Assembly: GCF_000427405.1 (NCBI RefSeq)
Contig: NZ_ATXY01000005.1
Location: forward strand, 124,001 to 188,000
Source: Flectobacillus major DSM 103
Lineage (GTDB): Bacteria > Bacteroidota > Bacteroidia > Cytophagales > Spirosomataceae
Direction: 5' to 3'
Length of the DNA: 64,000 nt
The translations under genes and the position numbers were made by a program. The notes below the pieces were generated by a model that had not been told where the DNA came from, made no database searches, and saw only the letters and a list, made by a program, of their open reading frames with translations. Of this stretch, positions 5,353 to 47,025 are shown piece after piece. The number at the start of each line of letters is the position of its first letter. Positions within the stretch are counted from its first letter, which is position 1.

Positions 5353-8300
5353 TTAGAATGATACATTTACACCAAAAGTATAAACACTTGTAAGGGGATA
5401 AAATCCGCCATTTTGTGCCATTTCGGGGTCCCATCCTTGATAATATGAATTAATAGAAAGGAGGTTTTGACCACTAAAGTACACTCTCAGTCTATCAATC
5501 TTCATTTTATTCATCAACTCATTACTAAATGTATAGCCTACCTGTAAGCTCTTTAATCTAGCAAAACTGGCATCTCTATTCCAAAATGTTGAGGCTTGAA
5601 CAATACCACTTCCTTCGTTGAGACTTGTTAGTTTTGGATAAAGTGCATTTGGATTGGGGTTTTCAGTTGTCCAACGGTTTTCTACTTGCCATCTTTGGAT
5701 TTGTCCTCCGTTGAAGAAGGCAAATGCCTGATAGTTATTCATTTGTTTTTGCCATCCTGCAAGTCCTTGCACTAACATTAAGAAATCAAATCCTTTGTAG
5801 TTTGCGGTAAGTGTTAAACCAAAGTTGTATTTCGGTACAGTATTTCCGATAAATGTTCTATCATAAGTAGCGTCTACTTTACCATCTGGTACACCATTAG
5901 GGCCACTTATATCTTTGAATCTGATAAAGCCAGGTTGTGCAGAATAAGGTTGTTGAGGATACTTAGCTACATCATCGGCATCTTTAAATAAGCCATCTGC
6001 AACATAGCCATAAGTAACGCCTAACGACTGTCCTACAAACAAATTGGCACTAATATTTTGCTGAAGCCCATTGGCGAGCTCAGTTACCTTGTTGTTGACC
6101 ACCGTAAAGTTTGGCGATACTCCGATTTTAACCTTCCCGATGTTGGCATGATAGTTTAAGCTCGCTTCAAAGCCCGTGTTTTCTACGCCTCCAATGTTTA
6201 CAGGAGAAGTACTAAGACCCAAAGTGGCAGAGCTTGCTACGCTATAAAGCACGCCAGAAGTTTGTTTTTTGAACACACCCAAGGTAAAATCTAATTTTCC
6301 TTTCCACAAACTGGCATCTATACCAATATCGGTTGTAGTGGTGGTTTCCCAAGTAATATCAGCGTTACTAAGTCTTGTAGTAGCTGCTCCAGAAACCAAA
6401 ACGCCACCTAGAGAATAGTTTTGTCCAAGCGAAACGATGTTCTGATAAGGATATGTTCCTACATTTTGGTTACCCAATTTTCCCCAGCTTGCTCTTACTT
6501 TTAAGGTATTAACCCAAGAAACATTCTTCAAGAAATCTTCTTCTGAAAGAATCCATCCTGCTGAGAACGAAGGGAAATACCCCCATCTACCTTTTGCAGG
6601 AAAGCGAGAAGTTGCATCCGAGCGTATATTGGCCTCAAACAAGTATCGGTTGTTATACGAGTAGTTTACTCTACTAAAAAACGAACGCATCGACCATGCC
6701 GAAGCAGAACCCGAGTTACTCATCCCTGTGGCAGAGCCGCCATTGATTTCATAGAGTGTATTCGTAGGGAAATCTTTACGAAAAGCCGACATTCCCCAAT
6801 CATCATATTGCTCCTGAGAAACACCACCGAGTATCGTAAACGAGTGTTGGTCTATTTGTTTGGAATAGGTTGCCAATGACTGCATGGTTAATTGCTGTCC
6901 TTGCCCAGATGATACGGTTAGATTATTTGGGCCAACCGTTTTGTTTGCATTAAACACAAATTCTGAAGCATAATCTTTGTTGTAATAGCTCCAGAAATTA
7001 TATCCAACTTTTCCGCTCAAGGTTAATCCTTTGATTACTTCCCAAGCAATTTCACTGCTTCCCAAAAAGTATTTGTTTGTTCCCTTGTAAAAAGACTGAC
7101 TTGACATCCATGCTTCAGGACTGTAATTATCTTGGTAACCATAAGTTCCATCAGATTTTTTACCTGCAAAAATAGGGCCTTGTCTTACCGCAAAATTTAT
7201 CATGCTGTTCATGCCACCATCATATTGACGTGGAGAGTGGTTTTCGGAAGTGTAGCCAGCCAAATTCACCTTTAGTGTAAGGTTATCCTTGATTTTGGTA
7301 TCAGTATTCAAAAGGATATTGTATTTTGAATAGCCATTTTTAGCCACGATACCGTTTTGTTGAAGATACCCAATAGAAAAAAGGTACCTTGTTTTATCAT
7401 TCCCACCCATAAAACTTAGGTTATGGTTACTTTGAAAACCATCTCCAGAAGTCAAGAGATTTTTTAAGTGAGGTACATTTGGATAATTATCAGAGTCTGA
7501 GCCATTTCTGAATTTCTCAATGTCAGCATCTGTATAAGAAATACCTGCACCTGCGTTGATATTTGCCTCATTCCTTAACTTAGCATATTCGGCAGATTCC
7601 ACAAAATCAGGTAGTTGTGTAGCATTTTGCCATCCAGCATAGCTATTATAACTAATTTTCATTTTGCCAGCTTCTCCTCGTTTGGTTTCGATGAGGATTA
7701 CACCATTGGCAGCTCGGCTACCATACATCGCCGCTGAGGCTGCATCTTTCAATACCGAAACACTCTTGATGTTGTTGGGGTCAACATCATTAATAGACGT
7801 GGCTAATCCGTCAACAAGTATCAATGCACCACCGCCAGCACCATAAGAGCCAATACCACGAATCGTAATACTTGCACCGTTATTACCAGGCTGTCCAGAA
7901 CCTTGCGATACCGAAACACCTGTCATTAAACCTGCTAGTGCTTGAGACGATTGTGTAATGGGTCTGTCTGCAATTTCCTTAGCAGAAATACTTGAAACAG
8001 AACCAGTTAAATTGATTTTCTTTTGAGTGCCATAACCCACAACTACCACTTCATCTAAGCTTTGTTGTTCTGCTACTAGCTTTATAGTCAATTCGGTTGC
8101 TTTACCTACTTGGATTTCTTGCTTTTTGTATCCTATATAGGAAAATACCAAAATGCTAGAGCCATTAGGGACATTGATGCTGAATTGTCCTTTGTCATTG
8201 GTTACACCACCCTTAGACGTTCCTTTGACTGTAATATTTACCCCTACCAAAGGAACACCATTTTCGTCTGAAACAGTACCTGTGATGGCTTGTTCCTGAT

Positions 8301-8709
8301 ATTCAGCTTGGGGTTCTACTTTTTCTTCGTTTTTTGAGAGAGGAGTATTGGACTTTTTTAGCAAAATCCTATTTCCTTGAATTTCATAGCTAATACCAAG
8401 TGGTGTAAATACTTCATGTAACACCTCTTTTAATTCCTTATTTTTGACATTAATACTTATTTTTCGCTTTGCACCTATACTATTTGGGCTATAGAAAAAG
8501 TTTACTTTTGCGGTATTCTCAAACTCAGAAAGAGCATCGATTAACCCTTTTTCTTGGATATGCAGAGTTATCTTTCTCTGTAACATATCTTGTCCGCTAG
8601 CATCTCTGGCGTACGACAGCGTTGTGAAAATAATCGCAATAAATATCTGTCCAGCTGAAATTTTCATAATGGATAGTAACGTTGCTAACGTTAATAGATT
8701 TTTTTTCAT
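5353..8709 (-). CDS. SusC/RagA TonB-dependent receptor with STN signalling domain
   Basis: 1118 residues. Order: signal peptide (to about 40), STN domain (about 47-118), carboxypeptidase-D-like regulatory domain (about 142-205, GVPLVGVNITVKGTSKGG), TonB-box/plug start (LDEVVVVGYGTQKK near 218), plug with VDGLA and GSRAANGVI, then the 22-strand barrel ending in aromatic F. It imports glycan fragments across the outer membrane using TonB energy. The STN domain marks it as a transducer able to signal to the FecR-type anti-sigma factor encoded just upstream; sigma, anti-sigma, SusC and SusD lie in one transcription order. A structured leader separates fecR from this gene. Confidence 0.95.
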   Translation of the reverse strand: MKKNLLTLATLLSIMKISAGQIFIAIIFTTLSYARDASGQDMLQRKITLHIQEKGLIDALSEFENTAKVNFFYSPNSIGAKRKISINVKNKELKEVLHEVFTPLGISYEIQGNRILLKKSNTPLSKNEEKVEPQAEYQEQAITGTVSDENGVPLVGVNITVKGTSKGGVTNDKGQFSINVPNGSSILVFSYIGYKKQEIQVGKATELTIKLVAEQQSLDEVVVVGYGTQKKINLTGSVSSISAKEIADRPITQSSQALAGLMTGVSVSQGSGQPGNNGASITIRGIGSYGAGGGALILVDGLATSINDVDPNNIKSVSVLKDAASAAMYGSRAANGVILIETKRGEAGKMKISYNSYAGWQNATQLPDFVESAEYAKLRNEANINAGAGISYTDADIEKFRNGSDSDNYPNVPHLKNLLTSGDGFQSNHNLSFMGGNDKTRYLFSIGYLQQNGIVAKNGYSKYNILLNTDTKIKDNLTLKVNLAGYTSENHSPRQYDGGMNSMINFAVRQGPIFAGKKSDGTYGYQDNYSPEAWMSSQSFYKGTNKYFLGSSEIAWEVIKGLTLSGKVGYNFWSYYNKDYASEFVFNANKTVGPNNLTVSSGQGQQLTMQSLATYSKQIDQHSFTILGGVSQEQYDDWGMSAFRKDFPTNTLYEINGGSATGMSNSGSASAWSMRSFFSRVNYSYNNRYLFEANIRSDATSRFPAKGRWGYFPSFSAGWILSEEDFLKNVSWVNTLKVRASWGKLGNQNVGTYPYQNIVSLGQNYSLGGVLVSGAATTRLSNADITWETTTTTDIGIDASLWKGKLDFTLGVFKKQTSGVLYSVASSATLGLSTSPVNIGGVENTGFEASLNYHANIGKVKIGVSPNFTVVNNKVTELANGLQQNISANLFVGQSLGVTYGYVADGLFKDADDVAKYPQQPYSAQPGFIRFKDISGPNGVPDGKVDATYDRTFIGNTVPKYNFGLTLTANYKGFDFLMLVQGLAGWQKQMNNYQAFAFFNGGQIQRWQVENRWTTENPNPNALYPKLTSLNEGSGIVQASTFWNRDASFARLKSLQVGYTFSNELMNKMKIDRLRVYFSGQNLLSINSYYQGWDPEMAQNGGFYPLTSVYTFGVNVSF

Positions 8710-8759
8710 AAATTGTAATGTTTTTGTTTTTCTCGAAAATTGACAAAAATATTCCCATA

Positions 8760-8778
8760 CACTTCCTCGAAAGAAGTG
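8760..8778 (-). promoter_or_regulatory. second leader hairpin before susC (locus 1)
   Basis: CACTTC (8760-8765) pairs with GAAGTG (8773-8778); an outer ATTCCC/GGGAAT pairing can extend it. On the minus strand the outer stem is followed by ATTTTTGTCAA. The matching place in the second sigma-controlled locus carries a hairpin followed by TTTTTTGTCAA, so the arrangement is conserved and attenuator-like. Confidence 0.5.
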
Positions 8779-8808
8779 CCTAAAATTGTTTCAACGGGAA
8801 TTGCATGG

Positions 8809-8839
8809 AGTCGGTAAATGGTGCGAACATTTGCCGACT
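8809..8839 (-). promoter_or_regulatory. conserved GTCGG hairpin between fecR and susC (locus 1)
   Basis: On the minus strand AGTCGGCAAATG, a 7-base loop and CATTTACCGACT form a 12-bp stem with a single G-U pair. The same motif, in the same orientation and place, occurs before the second STN-type susC at 43422-43453. Confidence 0.7.
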
Positions 8840-8926
8840 TTTCTTTTTTAGGAAGAATTGGAAACTTTTTAGCTCATAGTTGTTAGTAGGCTTTTTATAG
8901 TGTTAAAGAAATATATTTGTTAATAA

Positions 8927-10027
8927 TTAGTAGTTACATCCTTGTCCAGATATAATCACCTGAACATCCGTAACTTGGTAGCTTAGCCCTGTGATTTTGG
9001 TAATACTATTCAATTTATCAAACATGGTTTCGTCCGATAGGTTGCCGTTAATCGTACAGTTTTCATAGAGTTTTGCATCGTATACTATTTTGATTCCATA
9101 GGCTTTTTCTAAGTCTGAAAACACATTTGCCAAAGATGCGTTATGATATATAAATAATTGATGACCAGTAGATTCTGGTAGTATTTGAGGCAATTCTACA
9201 ATCTTTCTTATTAATTTAGCTTTGGGCAACTCATAAACCACTTCTTGATTTGGAGTAACAATGACTGTATTTGGGCTCGTAATGTTATCTTTATTGTTGC
9301 GACTATTTACTTCTGTTTGTGCAAGCACCGATACTTTACCCGTTTTTACAATAACTCTTTCTTCTTCAGTATCAGGGTTTGCTTTGATTGTAAAGCTTGT
9401 TCCTAATACTTGAGTTATGAGCTTTTTGGTATAAATAATAAATGGTTTTTGTGGGTTTCTTTTAACTTTAAAAAAAGCTTCACCAACCAAATAGACCTCT
9501 CTTTTACTTTTTTCAAATACTTTAGGGTATTTAATCCGTGTGTTTTTTTGGAGAACTATTTCCGAACCATCACCCATTTTGATACTCATAGGTTGGTTTG
9601 AAGTATTTTGATTTTCAACAAACTCTATTTCTTCAAGATTATAATTCGCTAATTGAGGAATATCAAAATTTCTATTCTCTTGCTTATAATAGCTCATCCA
9701 ATAGCCTAGTCCTATCAGTAACAATACTGATGCTGCTAGCTGCCACTGAAACTTTGGCCAATAGCTTGATTTTTCAGACATTTGGATTTCTTGCTCTACA
9801 CCACTCCATATTCTTTGGAGCGATAACTCTTCATCAATAGGTGTAGCTTGCATAGTGCCAAGCGTTTTTACCAGTGATTTTGCTTCTAAAATCACCGTTC
9901 TTTTTTCTGGATGATTTCGCATGAAATCTTGCCAGAATGTATTTGTATGTTTATCGGGACTTTGTACCCAACGACAAAAAAAATCGTCTTTTACAAAATC
10001 TGTGGTGTTGTAATGAGAGTAGTTCAT
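8927..10027 (-). CDS. FecR-family anti-sigma factor
   Basis: 366 residues from the chosen Met. An upstream Met gives three more residues, but the start MNYSHYNTTDF aligns with MNYADFTRNDF of the second FecR in this window. A cytoplasmic N-terminal domain (sigma binding) is followed by one transmembrane helix (WQLAASVLLLIGLGYW, about residues 100-118) and a periplasmic FecR domain (GDGSEIVLQKNTRIKYP, EVYLVGEAFFKVK, FIIYTKKLITQVLGTSF), then a C-terminal STN-interacting segment. It relays occupancy of the STN-type SusC to the ECF sigma factor. It is transcribed after the sigma gene (about 108-base gap). Confidence 0.93.
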   Translation of the reverse strand: MNYSHYNTTDFVKDDFFCRWVQSPDKHTNTFWQDFMRNHPEKRTVILEAKSLVKTLGTMQATPIDEELSLQRIWSGVEQEIQMSEKSSYWPKFQWQLAASVLLLIGLGYWMSYYKQENRNFDIPQLANYNLEEIEFVENQNTSNQPMSIKMGDGSEIVLQKNTRIKYPKVFEKSKREVYLVGEAFFKVKRNPQKPFIIYTKKLITQVLGTSFTIKANPDTEEERVIVKTGKVSVLAQTEVNSRNNKDNITSPNTVIVTPNQEVVYELPKAKLIRKIVELPQILPESTGHQLFIYHNASLANVFSDLEKAYGIKIVYDAKLYENCTINGNLSDETMFDKLNSITKITGLSYQVTDVQVIISGQGCNY

Positions 10028-10135
10028 AGCTGTCAATTATAGAATGACATTTATAACAAAAATATATCCTATTTTTTTGAAAAAAATTTATACTTAATTT
10101 GTCATAAATTAGGTAAGTGAAAATAAATCAATGAT

Positions 10136-10747
10136 TTATCTAATAAATAATGCGAAAATAATTAGGGAAAAATGGATGGAAATATGGATTGATTGACGTA
10201 AAGAGAACAGAGCTTTTTGAAGAAGATTACCCACAGAAGCATAATTTAGCTCCATTATTTCTGCAATCTGGGCATTTGAGAATTGGTGATAATATTTTAA
10301 ATTGATGACTTCACGCTGACGCTGCGATAGCCCATCAAATGCTATTTTGAGTCTTTCTAATCGTTCTTTTTGACTTTCTTCCTCAATTAAAATTTTCTCG
10401 ATCGAAGCCTCGAAAAGATCTCCTCCTAATGTTTCATCAATTTCATCAGTATTTTTAGAAAAGTCGTACTTAACTGTTCGCATCAGCTTGTTTTTCAACG
10501 CCCGAAACAGGTAAAATTTAATAGAATCTGTGTCAGTGAGGTTTTCTCTACTTTGCCATAGTTCCAGAAATAAATCTTGAATACAGTCTTCGACAACCGA
10601 TAAGTTTGAAGAGATACGGAGTGTTACGCCATAATTCAGTAATGACTTAGCGTATAACTGGTATATTTTAGTAAAAGAATTTTTGTCTCCTTTTTTGAAG
10701 GATTGCCAAATTTCTAAATCACTGTTATGGAAAGAATTGATAGCCAA
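10136..10747 (-). CDS. ECF RNA polymerase sigma factor (FecI-like)
   Basis: 203 residues. Region 2 lies around residues 25-90 (FTKIYQLYAKSLLNYG, VEDCIQDLFLELWQSR) and region 4 around 130-185 (LSQRQREVINLKYY, SNAQIAEIMEL, VGNLLQKALFSLRQ). The C-terminus ends in a hydrophobic stretch (FSLIIFALFIR), also seen in the second ECF factor here. It probably directs RNA polymerase to the susCD genes downstream when released by the adjacent FecR. First gene of the sigma-fecR-susC-susD unit. Confidence 0.93.
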   Translation of the reverse strand: MAINSFHNSDLEIWQSFKKGDKNSFTKIYQLYAKSLLNYGVTLRISSNLSVVEDCIQDLFLELWQSRENLTDTDSIKFYLFRALKNKLMRTVKYDFSKNTDEIDETLGGDLFEASIEKILIEEESQKERLERLKIAFDGLSQRQREVINLKYYHQFSNAQIAEIMELNYASVGNLLQKALFSLRQSIHISIHFSLIIFALFIR

Positions 10748-41538: not shown

Positions 41539-42120
41539 TTGACTAAGAAAATATTACATATTGAAGATGAAGTCCTTTGGGAGTTGTTGCGGGCGGGCGA
41601 CGACACCGCCTACGAAGCCTTGTATAGGCGTTATTTCAAAATACTTTACAGTTACGGAAAACGTATTTTTAATGACGAGGATATTCTAAACGATGCTATT
41701 CAAGACCTTTTTGTGGACATTTGGCGAACACGCCATTTGCTCAATCAGGCCGAATCAGTCAAATTTTATTTAATAAGTTCTTTGCGTCGTAGAATTCACC
41801 GTTCTACCAAGCTCAATACTTTGCAGGTAAATGAATGGGAAAATGTACACGAAACCCTATTACCAACCGAAGACTCGCCCGAAATAGATTTTACCAATCA
41901 AGAAGATACCGTTATTCAAAAACAAAAACTCAGTCAATGGCTGAATCAATTACCTACTCGTCAGCACGAAGCCATTGTGCTGAGATTTTTTCATGATTTC
42001 AGCTATGCCGAAATTGCCCAAATGCTTCAAATCAAAGAACAAACTGCCCGAAATCTTGTTCAAAAGGCTTTGATTATTCTACGGTCATTGATTATTCTAT
42101 TGATTTTCATGGTTTTATAA
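41539..42120 (+). CDS. ECF RNA polymerase sigma factor (FecI-like), TTG start
   Basis: 193 residues. Region 2 is at about 15-75 (AGDDTAYEALYRRYFKILYSYG, NDAIQDLFVDIWRTR) and region 4 at about 130-180 (LNQLPTRQHEAIVLRFFHDFSYAEIAQMLQIKEQTARNLVQKAL). No in-frame ATG exists before region 2 and a TGA stop lies 15 bases upstream, so TTG at 41539 is the most likely start; such a weak start would keep sigma levels low. The hydrophobic tail (LRSLIILLIFMVL) matches that of the first ECF factor. First gene of sigma-fecR-susC-susD locus 2. Confidence 0.9.
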   Translation: MTKKILHIEDEVLWELLRAGDDTAYEALYRRYFKILYSYGKRIFNDEDILNDAIQDLFVDIWRTRHLLNQAESVKFYLISSLRRRIHRSTKLNTLQVNEWENVHETLLPTEDSPEIDFTNQEDTVIQKQKLSQWLNQLPTRQHEAIVLRFFHDFSYAEIAQMLQIKEQTARNLVQKALIILRSLIILLIFMVL

Positions 42121-42231: not shown

Positions 42232-43326
42232 ATGAATTATGCAGATTTTACTCGAAATGATTTTATAGAAGATACTTTTTTTAGGTGTTGGGTTTTTGAG
42301 CCAAACCAAGAAACAGAGTTTTTTTGGCAAAACTTCATGGCCGAATATCCCGAAAAGAAGCAGGATATACTAGCTGCCAAAAACTTATTACTTGCGATTG
42401 ACCAAGAGGTAAAAAGCGATTTTCCGACACAAGAACATGAAGATTTAATTTTTGACAGAATCCAAGAACAACTCAACAAACAGGTAGTTTTCTTGAGTCC
42501 TCGTTTGGCTATTTGGGTAAAATGGGCTGTTGCGGCATCGGTGGTATTGGCTATTGCTTTTTGGCAATGGAATACGCCTTTTTGGCAAAACCCCGCTGTT
42601 ACTTATGAGACAAACCTCCAAAAATCTACTTTAACGTTGATCGAGAAAATGAATACTACCAACAAGCCACTTGTAGTAAAGCTGAGCGATGGTAGCACAG
42701 TTACCCTAAGTGCCAATAGCAAAATAAGCTATCCAGAAGCATTTAATACCTACCCAACTCGTGAAGTGTATTTGAGTGGAGAAGCCTTTTTTGAAGTAGC
42801 CAAAAATCCCAAAAAACAGTTTTTGGTATATGCCAACGAAATGGTAACGAAGGTGTTAGGAACAAGTTTTAGGATTAGGGCGTACCCTCAAGAAAAAGAC
42901 ATTATAGTTCGGGTAAAAACGGGTAAAGTGTCGGTATTGGCTGTTGCCAACGACAAACAAGCTGACAATCATACGGGGCCTTATCAGGTAGAAGGCGTTT
43001 TGCTATTGCCCAACCAGCAGGCCATATTGGTTCGTGAAGAAACCCGTTTGGTAAAGTCGCTAGTCGAAAATCCTGAACTGCTCAAATCGGCCAAGCCATC
43101 GTTTGTGTTTACCGACACCAGCGTTGTTGAAGTGCTTAAAGCTTTGGAAAAAGGATACGGAATAGAAATCGTTTTTGATGAAGATGCGCTAAAAAGCTGT
43201 CAATACACAGGCGATTTGTCGAGGGAATCTTTGTACGAAAAACTGGATGTAATTTGTAAATCAATCGAAGCAAATTACCAGATTTTAGATACAAGCATAG
43301 TTGTTTCCTCGAAAGGATGTGAATAA
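42232..43326 (+). CDS. FecR-family anti-sigma factor
   Basis: 364 residues. Cytoplasmic anti-sigma domain with the shared N-terminal pattern NDFIEDTFFRCWV and FFWQNFMAEYPEKK; one membrane helix (IWVKWAVAASVVLAIAFWQW, about 90-110); periplasmic FecR domain (LSDGSTVTLSANSKISYP, EVYLSGEAFFEVAKNPKKQFLVYANEMVTKVLGTSF) and a C-terminal STN-interaction region. It transmits ligand binding at the STN-type SusC to the ECF factor encoded just upstream. The segment after it carries the same hairpin leader as in locus 1. Confidence 0.93.
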   Translation: MNYADFTRNDFIEDTFFRCWVFEPNQETEFFWQNFMAEYPEKKQDILAAKNLLLAIDQEVKSDFPTQEHEDLIFDRIQEQLNKQVVFLSPRLAIWVKWAVAASVVLAIAFWQWNTPFWQNPAVTYETNLQKSTLTLIEKMNTTNKPLVVKLSDGSTVTLSANSKISYPEAFNTYPTREVYLSGEAFFEVAKNPKKQFLVYANEMVTKVLGTSFRIRAYPQEKDIIVRVKTGKVSVLAVANDKQADNHTGPYQVEGVLLLPNQQAILVREETRLVKSLVENPELLKSAKPSFVFTDTSVVEVLKALEKGYGIEIVFDEDALKSCQYTGDLSRESLYEKLDVICKSIEANYQILDTSIVVSSKGCE

Positions 43327-43421
43327 AACTACTGATACAATACTTAATAAATACAATGTTTCAACCATAAACCCCAACCCTTGACTATGCAATAAAAAAA
43401 CTTACGAACATTTTAAATGAA

Positions 43422-43453
43422 GAAGTCGGCAATGCTCCACCATCACCGACTTC
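43422..43453 (+). promoter_or_regulatory. conserved GTCGG hairpin between fecR and susC (locus 2)
   Basis: GAAGTCGGCAATG (43422-43434), a CTCCAC loop and CATCACCGACTTC (43441-43453) form an 8-bp plus 3-bp stem with a 2-nt internal loop. It matches the hairpin at 8809-8839 in sequence, orientation and gene context. Confidence 0.7.
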
Positions 43454-43458
43454 GGATT

Positions 43459-43510
43459 CCTCTCTTTGCAAATCTCATCTGTTTTTAGACAGATGCAGAG
43501 GTAGTTTTTT
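43459..43510 (+). promoter_or_regulatory. terminator-like hairpin in the susC leader (locus 2)
   Basis: CATCTGT (43476-43482) pairs with ACAGATG (43489-43495), extended by CCTCT (43459-43463) with AGAGG (43497-43501), then TAGTTTTTTG. It lies about 35 bases before susC, between two genes that should be co-transcribed, so it reads as an attenuator. Confidence 0.55.
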
Positions 43511-43542
43511 GTCAAATTTTCTCTAAAAAACAAATCAAAAGT

Positions 43543-46500
43543 ATGAAAAAAAATAATACCATCCGTTACTGGGGGGGTAAAATTATGAAATGGACTATAA
43601 TACATTTATGTATAACTATCGTCTTTACTAATATTTCATTAGCATTTGATGCATCAGCCCAAGAACTACTCGATCGTCGTATTTCTATAGAAACTATTAA
43701 TCAGAATATCAACGTGGTACTCTCAGAAATTGAGAAAAACGTTGATGTAAAATTCTCGTATAGCCCCAACCTTATCAAAGCTTCGAGAAAGGTAACTTTC
43801 ACAGCCACCAACGATAAGCTGTCGACGGTATTGGAGCGGTTGTTGAAGCCTCAAAAAATTAAGTATGAGATTGTTGGACGACAGATAATTCTTAGAAGAG
43901 AACTGTCGGAGGTAATCCCAAACGAAAAAGAAGAAGCGTCAAGCCTCGTCAATATTTTTGAACAAACCCTTACAGGAACAGTAACCGACGAAAGTGGTAT
44001 TCCTTTGCCAGGGGTTACTATTTTGGTAAAAGGTACACAAAAAGGCGTAAACTCAGACAACAACGGGAAGTTTAAAATAACAGTAGCCAACGAAAAGGCA
44101 GTATTGGTATTTTCGTTTGTGGGCTATATTGCCCAAGAAATAGAAGTAGGTACTAAAACCACAATTAATATTTCTTTGAAAGCCGACAACAAAGCCCTTG
44201 AGGAAGTTGTCGTGGTAGGTTATGGTACAAAAAGCCGCAAAGATGTAACAGGTTCTATTGCTTCGATTAGTACACAAGACATTAAAGATATGCCTGTAAC
44301 CAATGTTGCAGAAGGTATGGCTGGAAAAATGCCTGGGGTTTTGATACAACAAACTACAGGTGCTCCGGGCAATAGCCCCTCAATCAAAATTCGGGGGTTT
44401 GGGTCTATTAGTGCTGGCAATGGCCCATTGATTGTGGTTGATGGTCAGCCTCTTAGCTCAGGAGACCTGAATAATGGAAGTGGCCTAAACCTGATGAATC
44501 CCAACGATATAGAAAGTGTTGATGTGCTGAAAGATGCTTCTGCAACGGCTATTTTTGGGTCGAGAGGAGCCAATGGGGTAATGATGATAACCACCAAGCG
44601 AGGCAAAGCTGGTAGAAGTCGTATCAATTTTGACTTTTACACGGGTGTACAGCAAATCAGCAAAAAAATGGATATGCTCAATGCACAGCAGTTTGCCGAA
44701 TTTAGTAAAGATGCTGCCAATAATGCCTATTTAGAGCGAGTAGCGGGTGCTTTGGTAACAGACCCCAACAGTGTTCGTCCTGCTGGTGGCCGTTATCGTT
44801 ATCCAAGAGGCGAATTTGCGGGTATTAATTTTGACAACCCCGCCAGCTTAACTTCATACGATTATCAGAGCCTTATTTTTCGTCAAGCTCCTATTAGTAA
44901 CTATCAGTTATCGGGTTCGGGTGGCTCTGAAAAGGTACAATATATGGTTTCTGGCAACTTCCTTACTCAAGATGGCATTATCAATACATCGGGCTTAAAG
45001 CGTTATACTTTTCGCTCAAATATAGATGCTCAGTTGTCGCCTAAGTTAAAAGTAGGAATGAGTATGAGCCCTTCATTTACAACCGAGCGTCGGGTCAATT
45101 CAGATGGTCACTGGGCCAACAACGGTGTTATTAATGCGGCATTGTCACAAGCTCCTATTATTTCTATTTATCAGGCCGACGGCGTAACCTATAATTCGCA
45201 GGCATCTATTGCAGGAGCTTACGACTGGGCAGGTGTAACCAACCCAGTAGCCAATATTACCGAACTCGACAATACAGCCAATACATTGAGGTTGCTTGGT
45301 AATGCTTATGCCGAGTTGGCTATTTGGAAAAGCCTCAAATACCGTGGAAGTATAGGCGGTGATTTTAACTATTTCCGTCAAAATCAATTTCAAACTTCGG
45401 CTCTTCCACTCAACCAATTGTTGCCACCTAATGCCAATTCGGCCTCGTCGACTACCAGCCAGAATATCAACTGGGTAACAAGCCATACATTGAGCTATAA
45501 CTTTGATATAAACAAAGATCATCATTTTGATGCTTTGGTAGGCTTGGAAGCACAGAAAAATGATTTTGAAAGTAATAGGGTCAATGCCAATAAGTTTCCT
45601 AACGACCTTGTAAGGACACTCAATGCTGGGGTTATTATTGGAGGTAGCTCATTAAAAGAACAATGGTCGTTGGCTTCGTATTTTGGGCGTATTGGGTATA
45701 CTTACAAAGACAAATATCTTTTCAATGGCTCTATTCGTCAGGATGGCTCTTCTCGTTTTGGTGTTAATCAACGCAATGGTATTTTTCCTTCGGCCTCGGT
45801 AGGTTGGCGAATAAGCGAAGAGTCTTTCTTGAAAAATAGTAATGTTATTTCGGATATGAAATTCAAAGCTAGTTACGGATTGGCAGGTAACAACGCTTTT
45901 AATAATTATGGCTCGATTGGCCTATTGAGTAGTGACAACTATGTTTTTGGCAATAACCTTGTTAATGGCTTGGCTACAACCAGTATCGGTAACGATAATT
46001 TGACATGGGAAAAAAGCCGCCAAACCGACATAGGCTTAGAGCTGGGTTTGTTGAAAAGACGTATCTTTTTGACCATAGATTATTACTCTCGTATTACTAC
46101 CGACTTGTTGCTATCGGTGCAAGTACCCACTCTTACGGGTTTTTCTACGGCTAGTCGCAATATCGGTAAAGTTGAAAATAAGGGAATGGAGTTTGGCTTA
46201 GTAACTCGCAATATTACTGGCGAATTTCAGTGGAGTACCGATTTTAATGTGTCGTTCAACCGAAACAAAGTGCTAGCCTTAGGGCCAACAGGCGATGCGA
46301 TTCGCAGTGGGTCGGGTGTTGGCGAAACCAATATTACCGTTATTGGAAAGCCACTTGGTAATTTTTATGGGTTCAAACAGCTCGGTGTATTTAAAGACCA
46401 AGCCGATTTGGATAGCTACCCACACGAAGCAACGGCTCGCCCTGGCGATGTGAAGTTTGAAGATGTGAATGGCGATGGAAAAATCAATGCCGATGACCGT

Positions 46501-47025
46501 ACCATTATTGGTAATAACCAACCCGATTTTATTTATGGTATGACCAATACCTTTTCATTCAAAGGCATCGACATAGGTATTTCGGTACAAGGAATACAAG
46601 GTGGACAAATCCTCAACTTGAGTCGCCGATTTATCGAAAACCTCGAAGGAAGTCAAAATCAGCTTACTACGGTCTTGAACCGCTGGCGTTCGCCTCAAGA
46701 CCCAGGCAATGGTGTTGTACCACGTGCCAACCAACGCACTACGGGTAATAGCAATGCTATTTCGAGCAGATGGGTAGAAAGTGCCAGTTATTTCCGTATC
46801 AGAAATATTACGATAGGATATAACATTCCTAAAAAATTGATTGAACGTGTCAAAATCCAAAGCCTTCGTTTATATGGTGGTGTTCAAAACGCCTTTACTT
46901 CAACCAAATATTTAGGATATAACCCCGAAGTAAGTGGCTACGAAAATGCCCTTACTGGTGGTGTCGATTACGGCTCGTATCCTTTGGCTCGTACCTATAC
47001 GATTGGTTTAAATATTGGTTTTTAA
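43543..47025 (+). CDS. SusC/RagA TonB-dependent receptor with STN signalling domain
   Basis: 1160 residues. Signal peptide (to about 40), STN domain (about 45-118: ISIETINQNINVVLSEIEKNVDVKFSYSPN), regulatory beta-sandwich (about 145-205: GIPLPGVTILVKGTQKGV), plug (LEEVVVVGYGTKSRKDVTGSIAS; IVVDGQPLS; FGSRGANGV), barrel ending YTIGLNIGF. The EF-hand-like segment DVNGDGKINADD near 970 is common in SusC barrels. It imports glycan fragments and, through its STN domain, signals to the FecR/ECF pair encoded upstream. It is directly followed by its SusD partner (22-base gap). Confidence 0.95.
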   Translation: MKKNNTIRYWGGKIMKWTIIHLCITIVFTNISLAFDASAQELLDRRISIETINQNINVVLSEIEKNVDVKFSYSPNLIKASRKVTFTATNDKLSTVLERLLKPQKIKYEIVGRQIILRRELSEVIPNEKEEASSLVNIFEQTLTGTVTDESGIPLPGVTILVKGTQKGVNSDNNGKFKITVANEKAVLVFSFVGYIAQEIEVGTKTTINISLKADNKALEEVVVVGYGTKSRKDVTGSIASISTQDIKDMPVTNVAEGMAGKMPGVLIQQTTGAPGNSPSIKIRGFGSISAGNGPLIVVDGQPLSSGDLNNGSGLNLMNPNDIESVDVLKDASATAIFGSRGANGVMMITTKRGKAGRSRINFDFYTGVQQISKKMDMLNAQQFAEFSKDAANNAYLERVAGALVTDPNSVRPAGGRYRYPRGEFAGINFDNPASLTSYDYQSLIFRQAPISNYQLSGSGGSEKVQYMVSGNFLTQDGIINTSGLKRYTFRSNIDAQLSPKLKVGMSMSPSFTTERRVNSDGHWANNGVINAALSQAPIISIYQADGVTYNSQASIAGAYDWAGVTNPVANITELDNTANTLRLLGNAYAELAIWKSLKYRGSIGGDFNYFRQNQFQTSALPLNQLLPPNANSASSTTSQNINWVTSHTLSYNFDINKDHHFDALVGLEAQKNDFESNRVNANKFPNDLVRTLNAGVIIGGSSLKEQWSLASYFGRIGYTYKDKYLFNGSIRQDGSSRFGVNQRNGIFPSASVGWRISEESFLKNSNVISDMKFKASYGLAGNNAFNNYGSIGLLSSDNYVFGNNLVNGLATTSIGNDNLTWEKSRQTDIGLELGLLKRRIFLTIDYYSRITTDLLLSVQVPTLTGFSTASRNIGKVENKGMEFGLVTRNITGEFQWSTDFNVSFNRNKVLALGPTGDAIRSGSGVGETNITVIGKPLGNFYGFKQLGVFKDQADLDSYPHEATARPGDVKFEDVNGDGKINADDRTIIGNNQPDFIYGMTNTFSFKGIDIGISVQGIQGGQILNLSRRFIENLEGSQNQLTTVLNRWRSPQDPGNGVVPRANQRTTGNSNAISSRWVESASYFRIRNITIGYNIPKKLIERVKIQSLRLYGGVQNAFTSTKYLGYNPEVSGYENALTGGVDYGSYPLARTYTIGLNIGF

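Follow-up and report, generated by a model that had tools for sequence, protein, structure and literature searches.

Two sigma-controlled susC loci in the 64,000-nucleotide stretch of Flectobacillus major DSM 103 DNA analysed here (hereafter the window) carry a matching pair of hairpins between fecR and susC, and the question that they raise is what kind of element these hairpins form and on which strand it acts. In both loci the Pfam domains give the gene order sigma factor, fecR, STN-type susC and susD. Locus A lies on the minus strand, with an ECF-type sigma factor at 10136..10747 (Sigma70_r2 and r4_2 domains), the fecR anti-sigma factor at 8927..10036 and susC, which has STN and plug domains, at 5353..8709 (ATG at 8709). 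Locus B lies on the plus strand, with an ECF-type sigma factor at 41539..42120, the fecR anti-sigma factor at 42232..43326 and susC, with STN, plug and barrel domains, at 43543..47025 (ATG at 43543). The original prediction had placed two hairpins on the sense strand of both leaders, with a T-run and GTCAA, A-rich sequence and finally the ATG of susC behind them. Sequence and folding agree with it on the two hairpins, here called H1 and H2, and both leaders bear the series that follows them (T5 and GTCAA after H2 at 8740..8749, minus strand, in locus A; T6 and GTCAA at 43505..43515, plus strand, in locus B; then the A-rich stretch and the ATG). For the third susC in the window (55222, labelled L265) the pair was said to be absent, and both the hairpin scan and the sequence find no H1 there.

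On the plus strand of locus A, H1 spans 8809..8839, has the loop GTGCGAA and is followed at 8841..8850 by the T-run TTCTTTTTTA, seen both in the sequence and in the terminator scan; hairpin and T-run together reach -18.6 kcal/mol, and H1 would be the terminator hairpin of the antisense RNA predicted below. H2, which would lie 5' of H1 in that RNA, was located by sequence and folding at 8751..8801 (plus strand), where the outer arms ATTCCC/GGGAAT pair 8796-8801 with 8751-8756 and the inner arms are CACTTC/GAAGTG. In locus B both hairpins are read on the minus strand: H1 at 43422..43453 has the loop GTGGAG and a weak T-run behind it, TTCTTCATTT, and H2, again located by sequence and folding, occupies 43459..43501. 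At each locus 1 of 200 dinucleotide shuffles folds as well as H1 alone or better. Read on the sense strand, the H1 stem of locus A seems to contain a C.A mismatch, or 'bulge'; in the opposite strand these two positions form a G.U pair. Further, the covariance model of H1, R1, scores locus A at 29.7 bits on the antisense and 12.7 bits on the sense strand, and locus B at 38.5 bits on the minus and 16.7 bits on the plus strand.

An A-run precedes H1 on the sense strand and none follows it, so that the opposite strand holds a hairpin with a U-run, that is, an intrinsic terminator. We gathered 119 gaps downstream of fecR from this genome and from same-family genomes, 86 of which measure 100-340 nt when the first ATG of the downstream frame is taken as its start; the downstream gene is the next open frame and is assumed to be susC. 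The 80 extra gaps came from the best-scoring FecR_C matches listed, with those of genome G026 left out (only two loci stem from that genome). A stable hairpin running straight into a T-run was found in 70 of the 86 gaps when the antisense strand was scanned and in 9 for the sense strand; dinucleotide-shuffled gaps (one shuffle each) gave 6 and 1. H1 of locus A passes the intrinsic-terminator rule on the antisense strand, and locus B (L018) and L023, a further copy in the same genome, fail its T-run rule on that strand. Best palindromes chosen blind to strand qualify in 67 of the 86 gaps. In sense orientation, 53 of the 67 have an A-run at their 5' side and 1 has a T-run at its 3' side; among their non-Watson-Crick pairs, 42 become G.U in the antisense RNA alone, 7 do so in the sense RNA alone and 4 are other mismatches. 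The aligned 10-bp stems of 65 H1 hairpins give 63 antisense G.U pairs, 3 sense and 4 others, and because 62 of these hairpins had been picked by the scan for antisense terminators, with the other 3 (L018, L023 and L054) added by hand, this set favours antisense G.U and the strand-blind count is the fair one. The inner hairpins of H2, sought only beside a chosen H1 and between it and susC, hold 15 pairs that are G.U in antisense versus 1 in sense, and 11 other mismatches. Judged from their sequences, H1 and H2 look shaped for an antisense transcript carrying them in the order H2, H1, U-run. H1 as a sense-strand terminator was rejected, the T-run being on the wrong side in the terminator scan and in the strand-blind palindromes alike. 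The sense-strand assignment of the structure, and with it the proposal that H1 is a sense attenuator or processing hairpin, gives way to the opposite strand, which is better supported by the side of the T-run and by mismatches that are mostly antisense G.U.

FecR_C matches number 17 in the F. major genome; 6 fall within long susC frames, which leaves 11 fecR genes that bear the domain. H1 with an AGTCGG/CCGACT-type stem was found in 4 of the 11 fecR gaps (L024, which is locus A, L018, and the further copies L020 and L023), and 3 others (L016, L017 and L021) have H1 with a different stem; these 7 score 29.7 to 38.5 bits with R1, all on the antisense strand. H1 was absent from the R1 scan at the remaining 4 fecR genes (L019, L022, L025 and L026). 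The L021 gap is 152 nt when measured to a later start, which bears the box CAAAAGTATG discussed below, and its frame has an ATG upstream. The H1 loop is 6-7 nt long in 64 of the 65 aligned hairpins and is mostly closed by GTG/CAC (24) or ATG/CAT (20). After 5 of 64 hairpins were dropped (L066, L069, L080, L118 and L121), the 59 chosen ones were used for the covariation analysis and for R1; their stems covary at 0.806 versus 0.304 when shuffled, and all 10 pairs show two-sided changes. Scoring 150 of 1366 first-look candidates, R1 found 7 places in this genome at E <0.005: 6 fecR-susC gaps, always in antisense orientation, and 1 ordinary bidirectional terminator; this distribution does not support a dispersed repeat. 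The true copy L021 is missing from these genome-wide hits and was recovered by a direct scan of the 11 fecR loci. We also rejected H1 as the general terminator style of the genome, as ordinary terminators have other loops: by eye, an H1-type loop was seen in 1 of 124 terminator calls (260 intergenic gaps, 464 kb of this genome), namely in H1 of locus A itself. As a separate observation, an ordinary terminator with variable stems and an AACTAA apex (GAAA or GGAA on the left, TTTC on the right) recurs in this genome, with seven listings that all fall in convergent gaps (L143-L162 and the window).

Besides the covariation among the chosen hairpins, a covariance-model search of related genomes, the check that had been proposed for this element, found matches mostly in the fecR-susC gaps of relatives. 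In four same-genus genomes, 44 of the listed R1 hits were examined: 32 lie between an upstream FecR and a downstream SusC, 4 have SusC only and 8 have neither; of the 24 hits with loci (E up to 5.5e-4) in these genomes, 23 have both genes and 1 has SusC only. As a control, 30 of 56 SusC matches were taken, 22 without fecR and 8 with it. An antisense hairpin with a T-run occurs in 3 of the 22, none with an H1-type loop, versus 4 of the 8. At the level of the class, FecR_C was found in 18 of 60 genomes drawn, our own included. We viewed 48 fecR loci (28 + 20) in this wider set, 26 of them with a gap of 60-450 nt, and by a shuffle-free count the hairpin with T-run is antisense in 12 of the 26 and sense in 1, with none by the rule in the other 14. 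The 12 antisense cases come from G042, G060, G063 and G068, all outside the family of the window's genome. The idea of a functional RNA beside STN-type susC genes with a sigma/anti-sigma pair keeps its core, given the covariation, the recurrence in fecR-susC gaps and the rarity beside susC genes that lack fecR, and loses its sense strand. The statement that no described family covers it holds as far as Rfam goes, since Rfam 15 gave only sub-threshold matches and no family above the gathering threshold in the window and 20 relatives; cis-antisense RNAs opposite susC, such as DonS, are already described (PMC7366714, PMC10994844).

Bacteroides housekeeping promoters, read by sigma-ABfr, have the consensus TTTG / TAnnTTTG, and a candidate -7 box of this type lies over the susC start codon of both window loci on the antisense strand. 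In locus A the box is TAAATTGT (8709..8716, plus strand), an imperfect match to TAnnTTTG that is perfect in paralogues, and in locus B it is the perfect TACTTTTG (43536..43543, minus strand), which reads CAAAAGTATG on the sense strand. In this genome, TAnnTTTG upstream of ordinary genes was counted 114 times in sense, 61 times in antisense and 29 times in reversed sequence. The antisense TAnnTTTG (sense CAAAnnTATG) sits on the first ATG in 37 of the 86 gaps versus 6 of 332 predicted ORFs of this genome (window included), and the relaxed box [CT]AAAnnTATG in 51 of the 86 gaps versus 10 of the 332. Using the first ATG misplaces some starts (15 more of 118 gaps have the relaxed box at a later in-frame ATG, and 1 has it at an out-of-frame ATG), so that these first-ATG counts are low and some distances from H1 to the ATG are too short. 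Among the control genes, the box is on the start in 0 of the 22 susC without fecR versus 4 of the 8 with fecR. A CAA (antisense TTG) stands at a spacer of 19 or 20 from 19 of the 51 boxed starts, compared with 2.4% and 3.3% of control starts, and a second CAA peak occurs at spacer 14 (8 of 51). Box and TTG spacing together agree with the Bacteroides consensus of the sigma-ABfr promoter. The box at the susC start could also partly serve translation. By eye, many STN-type susC frames, for example those starting at 8709 and 43543, have a second in-frame methionine at about codon 13-16 (..IMKIS..); the first codons would thus overlap the predicted antisense promoter, and these starts are provisional.

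The predicted cis-antisense RNA of locus A, comprising H2, H1 and the T-run, would extend over 8722..8850 on the plus strand, its 5' end near 8722 being set by the box, and that of locus B over 43414..43530 on the minus strand, with a 5' end that is likewise a prediction. In locus A the antisense RNA folds at -34.4 kcal/mol (z -3.15) and the sense strand at -30.7 (z -2.69); in locus B the values are -32.7 (z -3.40) and -28.0 (z -2.79). Across 47 leaders the predicted length has a median of 114 nt and a range of 81-140 when the start is assumed about 7 nt past the box. We infer, with good confidence, that both leaders give rise to a cis-antisense RNA of about 115 nt, an approximate length, which most probably turns down the susC that it faces, as is the case for DonS in Bacteroides. 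In this proposal a housekeeping-type promoter over the first susC codons (TTG, 19-20 nt, TAnnTTTG) would start an RNA that runs away from susC through H2 and would stop at H1, an intrinsic terminator with a loop of 6-7 nt. The decrease would come from pairing of the RNA with the susC 5' leader. The H1 loop may make the first, kissing contact, its partner being the complementary H1 in the leader of susC, and such a contact would require a susC transcript reaching back to H1.

DonS of Bacteroides was reportedly the subject of work by Cao in 2016. The DonS family is described as cis-antisense RNAs of 78-128 nt opposite susC homologues, whose expression they lower (PMC7366714), and a sigma-ABfr promoter is reported at 52% of the cis-antisense RNAs of B. 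thetaiotaomicron (PMC7366714, Ryan 2020). The RNA predicted here would share with DonS-type RNAs the place opposite a susC homologue, a similar length and a housekeeping-type promoter, and the link is drawn from these three and not from sequence. It differs in belonging to another family of the class, in being known from comparative sequence only and in its terminator hairpin with a conserved loop type. For B. thetaiotaomicron, 32 PUL-associated antisense RNAs are reported, with both negative and positive correlations to their PULs (PMC10994844, Ryan 2024); given the positively correlated pairs, repression is not general in Bacteroides. One report calls the mechanism of DonS unknown (PMC11697453), and a Flavobacterium study mentions B. 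fragilis cases (PMC9723704). The sRNAs FopS and GibS of B. thetaiotaomicron offer another comparison, in that FopS acts at susC leaders; they act in trans via a single-stranded 5' seed (PMC11697453), whereas the RNA here would be cis-encoded. Among the open-licence PMC papers listed by our searches, none described an antisense RNA class of this type outside Bacteroides. As far as we have searched, its spread to the present group is new, as is a terminator loop whose U-turn motif is specific to the antisense strand.

That motif concerns how pairing might begin. CopA/CopT is a plasmid antisense pair with a U-turn recognition loop. When antisense pairing begins loop to loop, the recognition loop of either partner can hold a YUNR U-turn (PMC4485353), and the H1 loop is proposed as the start of pairing from the papers on DonS-type RNAs and on YUNR recognition loops taken together. 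YUNR occurs in 33 of 64 H1 loops on the antisense strand versus 14.1 in shuffles (sd 3.2, highest 28 of 2000), in 12 of 64 on the sense strand versus 11.2, and on either strand in 42 of 64 versus 20.7. This antisense enrichment in a terminator loop is suggestive of kissing recognition. A strict YUNR is absent from the antisense loop at both window loci; locus A has one on the sense loop only (TTCGCAC) and locus B on neither strand. The parallel with CopA/CopT would lie in a loop of 6-7 nt, in the present case that of the terminator hairpin, with an excess of YUNR on its antisense strand. Unlike that plasmid pair, the RNAs here would be chromosomal and one per locus, with binding that is predicted and window loci that carry no strict antisense YUNR.

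Other readings of the same hairpins must be weighed against a DonS-like RNA. H1 might merely insulate fecR from stray transcription entering from susC, with the short RNA having no regulatory role. The strand evidence is equally compatible with this, and antisense RNAs can be noise, as one of the Bacteroides reports warns (PMC7366714); even so, we consider it unlikely, because a plain stop needs neither a conserved loop class nor a U-turn enrichment on one strand, the ordinary terminators of this genome make do with other loops, H2 is likewise shaped for the antisense strand and the promoter-like box is conserved over susC. An improbable place is also all that we give to a sense leader in which H2 and its T-run would attenuate transcription or end the sigma-fecR transcript, with H1 as an accessory or processing hairpin. 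It draws on 23 of 55 leaders in which, read in sense, a T-run directly follows a 5-bp H2 stem, a raw count taken without a control, and on the 9 gaps with a sense hairpin and T-run, which include locus B, where H2 on the sense strand is such a hairpin at -12.7 kcal/mol. Against it, 66 of the 67 best palindromes have no sense T-run, and in H1 and H2 alike the non-standard pairs speak for antisense RNA. The sense attenuator of the original prediction survives to this extent for H2, which by its sequence may be a sense terminator in some leaders.

The two strands could also work together. Transcription attenuation induced by an antisense RNA is known from the plasmids pT181 and pIP501, and the likeness here is that an antisense RNA would face a leader which may hold a sense terminator, attenuation in our case being hypothetical. 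The predicted RNA would then induce termination of the sense leader at H2 instead of blocking translation, a route suggested by the complementary H1 loops and by the downstream sense hairpin with T-run in part of the leaders. We hold this to be quite improbable, as it requires a sense promoter upstream of H1 and 77 of the 86 gaps have no clear single-hairpin sense terminator. Finally, the H1 palindrome is common to paralogous loci, as would be expected if the palindromes were DNA sites of a regulator or a dispersed repeat element. Stems that diverge with compensatory changes and an asymmetry of G.U pairs are unexpected for DNA binding, and R1 matches are mostly at fecR-susC gaps, so that we regard either version as very unlikely.

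Within the preferred reading, that of a cis-antisense RNA lowering its own susC, many fecR-STN-susC loci of the class might each have an antisense RNA whose terminator is also the recognition hairpin, with a U-turn-like loop taken from a limited repertoire yet differing from locus to locus within one genome, so that paralogues would be silenced singly and without cross-talk. This extension is tentative and, on balance, doubtful. Rare identical loops within a genome would fit private recognition, and among the 65 hairpins 1 of 140 pairs within a genome is identical versus 36 of 1762 between genomes. With orthologues collapsed to 50 hairpins there are 0 identical loops within a genome versus 1.28 in permutations, a smaller test that is non-significant (P 0.25). 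For 97 hairpins the counts are 1 of 299 pairs within versus 63 of 3677 between (one-sided P 0.04, from pairs that are non-independent). Loop pairs with at most one mismatch within a genome number 5 versus 3.6 permuted (P 0.86); such near-identical loops are not rarer than chance, which lowers the probability of private recognition, and these comparisons leave loop orthogonality between the loci of one genome only suggestive.

Because the element can be found from genome sequence alone, this layer of control would look old and widespread. The covariance model can now be used to seek it, with the H1 loop named as the part relevant to mechanism, and the strand is corrected for annotators of susC leaders.

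Several further features of the leaders were observed. A sense T-run that ends in G, mostly as G[TC]C, stands in 25 of 55 leaders, usually about 30 nt ahead of the susC ATG, and is possibly a sense terminator or an ECF -35 element. For judging the susC promoter that had been proposed to be ECF-dependent, TTTTTGTCAA, our literature search gave no usable ECF promoter motif. The leaders L016, L035 and L036 form a group with an H1-like AAGCGAAAACG/CGTTTTCGC and with further shared sequence downstream, TTTTCCAAGTATCTTAT. A scan for leader ATGs found mini-ORFs between fecR and H1, ATG-AGC-TAA in locus A (8869..8877, minus strand) and ATG-CAA-TAA in locus B (43387..43395, plus strand). Such an ATG between the fecR stop and H1, usually 28-50 nt ahead of H1 and opening a tiny ORF, occurs in 53 of 58 leaders. 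The ORF is no longer than 3 codons in 21 of the 53 versus 17% of 1331 control ATGs, a difference that is partly selection as the ATG was picked by context, and it stops ahead of H1 in 47 of the 53. TTGCCTATG recurs at these tiny leader ORFs, in other families too.
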